This document shows positions 58,562 to 61,937 of a stretch of 64,000 bases of DNA, in pieces. The stretch spans positions 62,001 to 126,000 of the forward strand of contig DASQHX010000010.1 of the NCBI GenBank assembly GCA_035631875.1, given 5' to 3'. The notes under the pieces are model-generated. The model was given only the letters and a program-made list of their open reading frames with translations. It searched no databases and was not told the origin of the DNA. Numbering within the stretch: position 1 is the stretch's first letter; the number at the start of each line of letters is the position of its first letter. This DNA is from Nitrosopumilaceae archaeon (GTDB taxonomy: Archaea > Thermoproteota > Nitrososphaeria > Nitrososphaerales > Nitrosopumilaceae). A program made the translations under genes and the position numbers.

Positions 58562-59836
58562 TTAGGTCATTATCTTAAATTGGATATTCCTTTCCTTCAG
58601 ATAGATTATTAATTTCTCGGCGTGTTTTTCATTTTCAGTCTCCAAACTTAAAGTTACACCTGCAGTGCCTGCTGGAATACTTGTGCTCAGTCTATCATGC
58701 ACTACTTCAACTATATTCACGCTTAGTGCAGAGATAACATCAACTACCTCTTTGAGTGCACCTGGTTTGTCTGTCAATACGATAAATATTTTCACCATTC
58801 TTCCCATTTCTGTAAGACCCTTGGCTACAATCTGCCCTAGCAAATACATGTCAACATTTCCACCTGAAAGTATTGGTACAACCTTCTTTCCTCTGGCAGG
58901 CTTTTTGTCAAGCAAATAAGCAAGACTTACTGCACCTGCAGGTTCCACTACCATCTTTGTTCTCTCCATCAAAAGAAACATGGCCTTGACTATCTGAGAA
59001 TCATCTACAAGAACTATGTCATCAATTAGTTCATTTATTATCTTAAATGTAAACTCGCCAGGTTTCTTCACAGAAATTCCATCTGCTATTGTCATTTGTC
59101 CTTTTACTGATTCTAGTTTTCCTGAATCAACAGATTTTTTCATTGCAGGAAATGCAGTAGATTGTACACCAATTACTTTGACTTTGGGTTTTTTTGTCTT
59201 GACTGCTTTTAATACACCTGCAGCTAATCCTCCACCGCCTATTGGTAGATAAATCTCGTCAACGTCTGGTAATGATTGCAAAATTTCCAATCCAATAACT
59301 CCCTGTGCTGCTATTACTTTTTCATCATCAAATGCATGGATTATTTGGGCACCTGTTTTTTGTGACAATTCTAATGCTTTGGACCATGATTCATCGTATA
59401 TGGTTCCAGATAGTACAACGTTTGCACCATATGATCTTGTTGCAGCAACTTTGGCAGGAGATGCAGTGATGGGCATCACTATGGTACATGGAATTTTTTC
59501 CAACGCAGATGCAAATGCAACTCCTTGTGCATGATTTCCTGCAGATGCTGCAATTACTCCTTTTCTCTTTTCGTCTTTTGACAAAGTAGCAATTTTTGCA
59601 TATGCACCTCTTACCTTAAATGAACCAGTCTTTTGTAGGCATTCTGATTTGAGATAAACCTTAGATCCCGTAATCTGGCTAAATGTAGCAGACATTTCCA
59701 TCGGAGTTTTGCGTATTACGCTACTCTGGATTTTTTGCGATTTTAGTATTTCATCAAAAGTAAGATTCATCAAATTCAACAGATCTCTTACTGTATATTT
59801 GGTTTCTTGCCAAACGTTGTTCGCTAAAGGGCGCAT
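58562..59836 (-). CDS. Threonine ammonia-lyase (threonine dehydratase)
   Basis: 424 residues. PLP lysine K74 in GSFKVRGAYAK, phosphate loop AASAGNHAQG, and GGGGLAAG. A C-terminal ACT-like domain (about 345-424) suggests allosteric control. It makes 2-oxobutanoate for isoleucine. The first 22 residues lack the conserved fold start, so the ATG at 59770 (MNLTFDEI) is a possible start. Confidence 0.92.
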   Translation of the reverse strand: MRPLANNVWQETKYTVRDLLNLMNLTFDEILKSQKIQSSVIRKTPMEMSATFSQITGSKVYLKSECLQKTGSFKVRGAYAKIATLSKDEKRKGVIAASAGNHAQGVAFASALEKIPCTIVMPITASPAKVAATRSYGANVVLSGTIYDESWSKALELSQKTGAQIIHAFDDEKVIAAQGVIGLEILQSLPDVDEIYLPIGGGGLAAGVLKAVKTKKPKVKVIGVQSTAFPAMKKSVDSGKLESVKGQMTIADGISVKKPGEFTFKIINELIDDIVLVDDSQIVKAMFLLMERTKMVVEPAGAVSLAYLLDKKPARGKKVVPILSGGNVDMYLLGQIVAKGLTEMGRMVKIFIVLTDKPGALKEVVDVISALSVNIVEVVHDRLSTSIPAGTAGVTLSLETENEKHAEKLIIYLKERNIQFKIMT

Positions 59837-59915
59837 GTATTTTTGATTTTAATGAAAAATTAACATAAAAAATACACAAAGAGGTCTTGTTTGAATAAAA
59901 TTTACATCGATCTGG

Positions 59916-59929
59916 AAAAGGCTAAATAC
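59916..59929 (+). promoter_or_regulatory. BRE/TATA promoter of candidate RNA
   Basis: AAAAG-GCTAAATAC: a purine-rich BRE followed by a TATA box centred near 59925, which predicts a start at about 59950. A 12-bp palindrome CACAGATCTGTG (59944-59955) sits at that start and could be an operator. Confidence 0.5.
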
Positions 59930-59954
59930 TATTTTGGATAGATCACAGATCTGT

Positions 59955-60024
59955 GTCAAGGGGTAGCGTGGCATCAACTCCCCATATGATGATGCCTTGC
60001 ATCCAGTTCCATAGGCCCCTTGAC
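59955..60024 (+). ncRNA. Candidate structured small RNA, about 70 nt
   Basis: GTCAAGGGG (59955-59963) pairs perfectly with CCCCTTGAC (60016-60024). Inside, GGCATCA (59970-59976) pairs with TGATGCC (59990-59996). A promoter lies 25-30 nt upstream, and no ORF fits. The size is tRNA-like, but no anticodon arm or T loop can be formed, so I do not call a tRNA. It is divergent from threonine ammonia-lyase and outside its likely leader. Type of RNA unknown. Confidence 0.5.
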
Positions 60025-60067
60025 TAAATTATAAAATTATAAAAAAGAACTAGAATATAAACAATTT

Positions 60068-60907
60068 TTAATTTTTCATTGCATCAAAAACTTTGTCCAT
60101 TCTTTCCAATAATTTTTCTTTTAGATTAGATGAAATTCTTGCTGGATCAAAACTTCCTTCTTTGGTTTCATTCTTTAAATGCTCAAGATCAAATTGGCAT
60201 AGACATCCCTCTTCTGCCCCTATCATCTTCATCTCATCAATCATCACTGGAACCGTATGATAAATCTCAATTAGCATGTTATCAAGCTCATTGAACAAAT
60301 CTGAACGTCTCTTTGTTAGTTGTGCAAAATTTTCATCCGTATTGGAATATACCTGCTCAATCATTTCTTTGGCAAGGTTATCATTTTGGAATAAAATTTC
60401 AAAGAGTTTTTGCTGATCTACTGTTTCATAACCTAGTTCTTTTAATTTTTCCTGAATTATTTGATCACCTTTTGGAGCAAGATTGATTTCCAATTCATTT
60501 ATCTTGTCAGTTATGTCTGCAAGTTCCTTTTGCACGTCAATTACTCTATGGTTTAGTTTGTAAAATAACAATGCATGATATTGTAGAGACATGTATCCTG
60601 AAAGAAGATAGTTTCCCTCTCTTGCTTCAAATCTAATAAAGATGCGCCGTAAATCTTTTTCATTGGAAGTAGATATATCCTGAGACCTCCAATCTGACAG
60701 TTTTTTTAATAACTCGCCATAAAAACGCCTAATCAATACAGGATCAAATGTATGTTGTTCAGAGACAGTGCCATCTCCTAGCATAACTTTCACATCCACA
60801 TTTTTTGTTAGATTCACTACATGTTCCAAAAATAATGACCTTATTTTCTGACTTTTTTCAGTCATTAATTTTATAAACTCATCTTGAGATTTAGCAGGAA
60901 TTTGCAC
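60068..60907 (-). CDS. Hypothetical coiled-coil protein
   Basis: 279 residues, soluble, helical, with a coiled coil at about 122-150 (VIDVQKELADITDKINELEI) and another near 205-225. A CLCQFDLEH segment near the end could bind metal. No family recognised. Confidence 0.72.
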   Translation of the reverse strand: MQIPAKSQDEFIKLMTEKSQKIRSLFLEHVVNLTKNVDVKVMLGDGTVSEQHTFDPVLIRRFYGELLKKLSDWRSQDISTSNEKDLRRIFIRFEAREGNYLLSGYMSLQYHALLFYKLNHRVIDVQKELADITDKINELEINLAPKGDQIIQEKLKELGYETVDQQKLFEILFQNDNLAKEMIEQVYSNTDENFAQLTKRRSDLFNELDNMLIEIYHTVPVMIDEMKMIGAEEGCLCQFDLEHLKNETKEGSFDPARISSNLKEKLLERMDKVFDAMKN

Positions 60908-61142: not shown

Positions 61143-61937
61143 TTGAGTGAGGGTCCAGTTGAAGAAAAATCAGAGCCAATATCTACTAATAACATAGTAG
61201 ACATGATGTTAGGTGCAGGTAGATCTGACGCCCTAGATACGGAATCGTTAATCAAGCAGACTCAAAAAAGAGTATGGAGTTCACTAAAGAAAGGCTATGA
61301 ATATGATTATTCAATAGACGAGTCTGACCAATTTTTGCGATCACATGTAGATATGAAACTACATATGATTGTGATCTTTGTAGACATTGTTGGATCTACA
61401 GAGATGACACTCCAGTTACCTGCAGAGAAACTGGCAATTATCATAAGTTCATTTTCTCAAGAAATGAGATATGTTATCAAACATCATGATGGTTATGTTC
61501 TAAAATATGTAGGTGATGCAGTAATAGGATATTTTGTGACAGAAGATAGCCCACTTTTGATAGCTGACAGCGCTGTGAACTGTGCAAGAACCATGATTGA
61601 CGTAATAGAAAGAGGAATAAATCCAATTCTTAGCGAATATGACTATCCAGAGATTCGTGCAAAGATTGGCATGGACTTTGGAGAAAACACCATAGTCAGA
61701 TACGGCTCTGATCAAACTAGATCGCATGTAGACATACTTGGTCCTGCAATGAGCATTGCCGCAAAGATAACAGCTCTTGCCAGACCAAATCAAATTCTAA
61801 TTGGGGAAGATGTTTATGATAAATTACATCCATCATTAAAACAATCATTCAAAGAAGTCGAGTGGCATGGAGACCAGTGGAACTATCATGACAGAGAAAC
61901 TGGAAGACTTTATCGTGTTTATGCTTTAATTGATTAA
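61143..61937 (+). CDS. Class III adenylate/guanylate cyclase homologue
   Basis: 264 residues from a TTG start. Metal Asp81 in FVDIVGST and Asp125 in KYVGDAV, with the base-reading Lys121 kept. The transition-state pair is changed: in DILGPAMSIAAKI the usual Asn is Ser204 and the usual Arg is Lys208. Activity may be weak or altered. No receptor domain attached; the N-terminal 70 residues are unassigned. Confidence 0.85.
   Translation: MSEGPVEEKSEPISTNNIVDMMLGAGRSDALDTESLIKQTQKRVWSSLKKGYEYDYSIDESDQFLRSHVDMKLHMIVIFVDIVGSTEMTLQLPAEKLAIIISSFSQEMRYVIKHHDGYVLKYVGDAVIGYFVTEDSPLLIADSAVNCARTMIDVIERGINPILSEYDYPEIRAKIGMDFGENTIVRYGSDQTRSHVDILGPAMSIAAKITALARPNQILIGEDVYDKLHPSLKQSFKEVEWHGDQWNYHDRETGRLYRVYALID

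Follow-up and report, generated by a model that had tools for sequence, protein, structure and literature searches.

The locus

The stretch of archaeal DNA analysed here, called the window, is 64,000 nucleotides long. One of its intergenic regions is bounded by two genes on the minus strand, both of which are syntenic in relatives. The first (58562..59836) encodes a PALP-family enzyme, probably threonine dehydratase (ilvA), with a weak ACT-domain match that scores below the Pfam cut-off. The second (60068..60907) encodes a protein of 279 amino acids for which no Pfam family was matched. This protein is present in 40 of the 61 genomes searched, and a gene with a nucleotide-cyclase domain lies near it at 61143-61937.

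Between the two genes lies a predicted small RNA gene on the plus strand, convergent with the 279-aa gene. Its 70-nt core (59955..60024) was delimited by folding and comparison. The core is closed by a 9-bp helix, P1, with its 5' strand at 59955..59963 (DNA GTCAAGGGG, RNA GUCAAGGGG) and its 3' strand at 60016..60024 (DNA CCCCTTGAC, RNA CCCCUUGAC). Inside it, a 7-bp helix, P2, is formed by GGCAUCA (DNA GGCATCA) at 59970..59976 and UGAUGCC (DNA TGATGCC) at 59990..59996. The P2 loop contains the motif CUCCCC (59978..59983), a proposed pairing or protein-binding site marked by its conservation and unpaired probability. Ahead of the RNA, on the same strand, are a TATA box, CTAAATA (59922..59928), and a BRE-like element, GGAAAA (59914..59919). 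Direct reading of the window confirms the BRE/TATA pair, the 9-bp closing helix and the 7-bp inner helix that a preliminary description of this DNA had reported. Behind the core, two T5 tracts on the plus strand (60065..60076) are, on sequence only, a possible termination site for a longer form of the RNA.

Relatives and distribution

Comparison with relatives confirms, at the level of sequence, that 59955-60024 on the plus strand belongs to a family of structured RNAs and is a real small non-coding RNA gene. When 61 genomes were searched at the nucleotide level, near copies came up in each of the other four of the genus (G001-G004), two each in G002 and G004, along with two distant members. 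A weak match in the same search (L006, in G037) has no helix, looks like coding sequence and was put down to chance. At E up to 1, a first covariance model, R1, matched 45 of 200 genomes, some noise included. By eye, its matches L051, L056, L058, L059 and L060 are noise, and L045, with neither TATA box nor CTCCCC, was left out.

Strongly diverged forms of the RNA were found in further genera by searching for the neighbouring protein and reading the syntenic spacers. These relatives are compact hairpins of 47-62 nt in which P1 is combined with an apical hairpin and a bulge that carries CUCCCC. The order ilvA, RNA, 279-aa gene recurs across many genera of a single archaeal family. The RNA is missing, by eye, from six syntenic loci (L096, L104, L105, L106, L107 and L113), and an unfiltered scan of these gave no convincing match, the best having an E of 0.31.

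A second covariance model, R2, comprises the promoter and P1 and was built from 15 sequences of nine genera. At E up to 0.5 it matched 20 of the 61 relatives and none of the 24 among these that belong to other families. Within the family it matched 131 of 250 genomes and 11 of 22 genera at E up to 0.01, which is about half. Across the class it matched 99 of 300 genomes and 11 of 69 genera, and among the matches listed all are of the same family. The counts below refer to 83 members, the number matched from 84 sources given; L030 (in G010, motif AACCUCUCC) has P1 and a TATA box and stands outside these counts because R2 does not match it at E 0.01. A pattern scan of named genomes returned 27 stretches, from Candidatus Nitrosotalea and unclassified Nitrosopumilales or Thaumarchaeota MAGs together with two chance repeats, L072 (Bacillota) and L082 (Coriobacteriaceae). 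Three stretches from viral contigs in a pattern scan have surroundings unlike those of the family and were likewise attributed to chance.

By R2 the window genome has a single copy; two further rows, at E 3.4 and 6.7, represent a match on the opposite strand and noise. Other genomes have up to four copies (G136), and in some of them the further copies occupy several unrelated loci. A paralogous class with the loop UACUCCCC (L165, L167 and L168) adjoins two genes that resemble, by eye, the archaeal aroA'/aroB' pair, and also lies near Alba-like and DNA-methyltransferase-like genes, again named by eye. Copies L164 and L169 lie near genes that look integrase-like or phage-Gp37/68-like, also by eye, which suggests spread on mobile elements.

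Predicted promoter and start

The TATA box of the window is kept in relatives, most of which also have an A-rich stretch ahead of it. Of the 83 members, 82 have a TATA-like box, its centre lying 27-31 nt ahead of P1 in 70 of these 82; the spacing was taken from an automatic anchor, and most of the shorter values come from anchoring on an earlier GTC or ATC. From the usual archaeal TATA spacing, which we take to apply here, the RNA is predicted to start within about 4 nt of P1, at about 59950-59952 in the window. An own promoter and an intergenic position are the marks of archaeal intergenic trans-acting sRNAs, and both are found here in the form of a conserved TATA box at near-fixed spacing, a predicted promoter.

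Between the TATA box and the start, the window has two GATC tetramers (59941-59944 and 59948-59951, without strand). Of the 83 members, 81 have GATC between TATA and P1, as compared with 2 of 30 tRNA upstream regions of the window genome (30 examined of the 40 tRNA genes found there). Since it is kept before the RNA and rare before tRNA genes, GATC may be the binding site for a regulator of the small RNA, a putative operator. The tetramers are overlapped by a 12-bp palindrome, CACAGATCTGTG (59944-59955), which the preliminary description had placed at the start of the RNA. The palindrome is indeed present in the window; its conservation does not extend far, as only close relatives such as L002, L003 and L004 have it whole, and even in L005, which is of the same genus, it is broken. 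Only its GATC core is conserved.

Structure and covariation

When 59950-60027 is folded alone, its energy is -29.3 kcal/mol (z -3.8), and none of 200 shuffles is equally good. For a slightly shorter cut, 59952-60027, z is -3.0 and two of 200 shuffles are equally good. As evidence for a structured RNA, the fold energy of the window RNA alone is suggestive only, and the real case is made by the relatives.

Over 84 aligned rows (82 distinct), 97.7% of P1 cells are paired, and double-sided changes occur at seven of eight pairs; slid controls are 34-61% paired. The covariation score of the whole modelled structure is 0.313 as against 0.219 in shuffles, none of 500 shuffles being as good, and sliding the partner by one base lowers its pairing from 86% to 54-61%. 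Three inner pairs of the 84-row model suit the compact class only and are 55% paired. For P2, counted over 42 distinct sequences from the window genus and the Nitrosotalea-like group, all six modelled pairs have double-sided changes and 96.2% of cells are paired. The preliminary description had proposed covariation of the paired bases as a check and named lack of conservation as the outcome that would speak against it. P1 and P2 both covary, and that outcome did not occur.

The 84 rows of alignment A9 come from 83 places, one row being an opposite-strand match of L034. A9 and a further alignment, A10, were fitted to models, so that pair counts from them lean towards the structure, and the models were built from family members, which therefore match by construction. 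The count that follows for 57 sequences was anchored without such fitting.

The types of base pair bear on the strand of the RNA. The P1 cells of the aligned family rows comprise 589 Watson-Crick pairs, 52 G-U, 6 A-C and 9 others; model-free anchoring of P1 in the 57 sequences gives 464, 35, 5 and 9. A G-U pair on the plus strand would read as A-C on the minus strand. Because G-U outnumbers A-C, selection acts on the plus-strand RNA. Fold energy, which is lower for the plus strand in 45 of 57 sequences, is weak evidence on this point.

These counts also bear on whether the element functions as RNA or as DNA. A DNA element without RNA function, such as an operator or a dispersed inverted repeat of the REP or MITE kind, might be suspected from the inverted-repeat ends and the dispersed copies, some of them beside the integrase- or phage-like genes identified by eye. 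The 52 G-U to 6 A-C pairs of the closing helix are, however, not expected of a DNA repeat; the locus is the same across genera, and the inner helix covaries too. A DNA element is accordingly very improbable.

Two mutually exclusive foldings are seen inside P1 in the window genus. One is P2; the other consists of an AACU/AGUU pairing and a hairpin, GAUGC-CUU-GCAUC. The AGUU lies in CAGUUCCAU (60004..60012, plus strand) and is able to pair with AACU at 59976-59979, in competition with P2. Conservation of CAGUUCCAU is confined to the window genus and some of the Nitrosotalea-like copies; the sequence is missing from most compact members and from the class whose 5' part is long. A conformational switch between the two inner foldings is conceivable in the window genus.

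Relation to known classes of RNA

An Rfam search, which had also been proposed at the outset, found no family of release 15 at the gathering score, either at the window element or at 16 further family loci. Two hits below the threshold look like chance.

Box C/D and box H/ACA guide sRNAs are small structured RNAs common in archaea. The present RNA lacks their defining boxes. Among the 84 aligned sequences, the C-box pattern RTGATGA (RUGAUGA in RNA) occurs in three and is followed by a D box, CUGA, in none; ANA directly after P1, and ACA within the next 8 nt, each occur in none.

A derived tRNA-like element had been put forward as one of two main options. The element does have nearly the length of a tRNA in the window (70 nt), and its TATA box is like that of the window's tRNA-Val gene. 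Neither ARAGORN nor the Rfam tRNA model (RF00005) calls a cloverleaf there, and the simplest relatives, bulged hairpins of 47-62 nt, are without one. The structure of the relatives refutes this reading, which can be set aside as next to impossible.

A 24-codon GTG...TAA frame runs through the window element and is kept in five of the closest copies (the window, L002, L003, L004 and L009), as might be expected if a small protein were encoded. Over the 83 members, however, the distances from one helix end to the other divide evenly among the three phases (28, 27 and 28, by approximate anchoring), and there is no common frame, which leaves a protein gene hardly credible. A cis-acting leader or riboswitch was also rejected: the RNA gene stands by itself, with a convergent gene next to it in the window, and the order is the same in syntenic relatives.

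The CUCCCC motif

The most conserved part of the RNA is CUCCCC, which is exact in 78 of the 83 members and replaced by other pyrimidine-rich sequence in the five exceptions. In the 78 members its mean unpaired probability is 0.89, as against 0.38 over all RNA positions, and it exceeds 0.8 in 66. One of the 78, L163, has CTCCCC by eye only within a P1 strand, its loop being UCUCCUC. In the window genus and the Nitrosotalea-like copies the motif lies in the P2 loop; in other genera it occupies a bulge between two stacked helices. Since its placement differs between these scaffolds, it is the motif that is kept, not the scaffold.

CUCCCC resembles the anti-Shine-Dalgarno (anti-SD) end of 16S rRNA, given as CACCUCCU; the 3' end of the 16S rRNA in the window genome is GGATCACCTCCT. 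The element is perhaps a free-standing regulatory RNA that presents CUCCCC for pairing with G-rich RNA sites in trans. This is our tentative preference, with a little under an even chance of being right. The comparison supplies a TATA box about 28-30 nt ahead, a closing helix near the predicted first bases and a CUCCCC that is held unpaired; transcription from the TATA promoter and pairing of CUCCCC with target RNAs are what we infer from these.

Under such a mechanism, the small RNA would be transcribed from its own TATA promoter and would fold through P1 from close to its predicted first bases. The exposed CUCCCC would serve as a seed for G-rich stretches of target RNAs in trans, such as GGGGAG, whether SD-like or other, and pairing would change the translation or stability of these RNAs. 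Because of the likeness to the anti-SD end, a block of ribosome binding would be the most likely form. The copies at several unrelated loci argue for action in trans. Absence from the six syntenic loci is as expected for an accessory regulator and not for a housekeeping RNA.

Targets were sought in the window genome itself. GGGGAG was found 3-12 nt ahead of ATG at 29 sites, as compared with 18 for the reversed pattern. About three of the GGGGAG sites look like true starts in a script reading of the open reading frames, those of GHMP/shikimate-kinase-like, nuoD-like and lysX-like genes (names from the translations, by eye). No clear regulon stood out among the SD-like sites in this ATG-pattern search. 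Six bases make a short seed, and the 16S rRNA gene itself contains GGGGAG three times.

With no clear regulon, protein binding is left as a serious rival to pairing in trans. An RNA-binding protein would in that case recognise CUCCCC, and the RNA would be a decoy, a scaffold or part of a ribonucleoprotein. A motif that stays fixed while its scaffold shifts from P2 loop to bulge is what a protein site would produce, and no target set stands out in the own-genome search. No candidate protein was found, however, and the 279-aa gene is also present where the syntenic locus is without the RNA. Overall, protein binding is somewhat unlikely.

A putative facing promoter behind the RNA

A second TATA-like box, TTTATAT on the minus strand, faces the RNA from behind at 60055..60061. 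A box of this kind recurs at a fixed distance behind P1 in all six members of the window genus, all six of genus g17, 22 of the 26 Nitrosotalea-like copies beside ilvA, and five of six and seven of seven members at two paralogous loci. In smaller groups the counts are 1 of 3, 1 of 4, 1 of 2, 2 of 4 and 0 of 1. Two genera that keep the RNA, g11 (0 of 14) and g19 (0 of 4), have no such box. From shuffled flanks, about one or less would be expected per group; members of a group are related, and the counts are not independent events. Of 30 tRNA flanks, 2 have a similar box anywhere within 70 nt. Since the paralogous copies stand beside other genes, the facing box is tied to P1 and not to the neighbouring gene.

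We read the facing box as a putative promoter of a full antisense RNA that would start near the end of P1; alternatively, it could be a 3' element of the sRNA itself. A more specific possibility, at present doubtful, is a convergent cassette, in which an sRNA with a CUCCCC seed is combined with a complete antisense RNA that exposes GGGGAG in a hairpin of its own, the two making contact loop to loop. The antisense start in this proposal is set by the TATA box about 30 nt behind the closing helix. The cassette would have been copied to further Nitrosotalea-like loci, some of them beside mobile elements. If this is true, the sRNA would be a global regulator in ammonia-oxidising archaea, and the antisense RNA an off-switch or sponge built into the same cassette.

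The same arrangement could instead act in cis, the RNA and the antisense RNA controlling each other or their neighbours and pairing in trans being secondary. A facing TATA at a fixed distance in five groups, also at loci with other neighbours, is in keeping with this. Its absence from two groups that keep the RNA (the 0 of 14 and 0 of 4 above) is not; in addition, the neighbours differ between copies, and the antisense RNA is a predicted one. Control in cis is therefore rather improbable as the main role.

Comparison with known systems

A regulatory RNA that presents CUCCCC for pairing in trans would have counterparts in other organisms. The cyanobacterial RNA Yfr1 carries a C-rich unpaired motif, and such motifs can pair with SD sequences. 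In the staphylococcal IsrR, according to the available part of its description, a short C-rich single-stranded motif is presented by hairpins (PMC9410917). The C-rich motif is shared with both; these RNAs are bacterial and not homologous to the present one, which may work like them and is not a member of either.

Nearer examples are the Methanosarcina mazei sRNA154 and sRNA162, described in the available text as archaeal intergenic trans-acting sRNAs with stable stem-loops (PMC5867862). The loop of sRNA154 carries an anti-ribosome-binding-site sequence, which provides an archaeal precedent for SD masking in that part of the paper (PMC5867862). The present RNA is like the pair in its intergenic position and stem-loops and like sRNA154 in a motif that resembles an anti-ribosome-binding-site sequence, as far as the excerpted description goes; the likeness is one of description, and no relation in sequence is claimed. 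It differs in that Methanosarcina belongs to another phylum and in that many copies of the present RNA have a facing promoter behind them.

No description of this RNA was found in the open-licence literature on Nitrosopumilus, Thaumarchaeota, Nitrosotalea and ammonia-oxidizing archaea, as represented by portions of main texts. The available part of an mdRNA-Seq paper contains no thaumarchaeal ncRNA description (PMC5069720), and in that of the N. limnia genome paper a single conserved noncoding RNA is mentioned, with no sequence given (PMC3043068). The terms Nitrosopumilus, crenarch and Cenarchaeum have no occurrences in PMC2864571. Covarying helices, a conserved TATA box, the lack of an Rfam match and the lack of a description in this literature thus support the other option of the preliminary description, a small RNA that is undescribed and has a promoter of its own. 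By Rfam and the open-licence literature, the window RNA belongs to a previously uncatalogued small RNA family.

Significance

The presence of the facing promoter in some genera and its absence from others is a natural experiment on the control of an sRNA by an antisense RNA in archaea. The archaeal family concerned includes abundant ammonia oxidisers of soils and oceans, and no conserved regulatory RNA of this ammonia-oxidising family is described in the parts of the open-licence literature searched. A covarying, family-wide RNA with one fixed unpaired motif is a testable entry to post-transcriptional control in this family.
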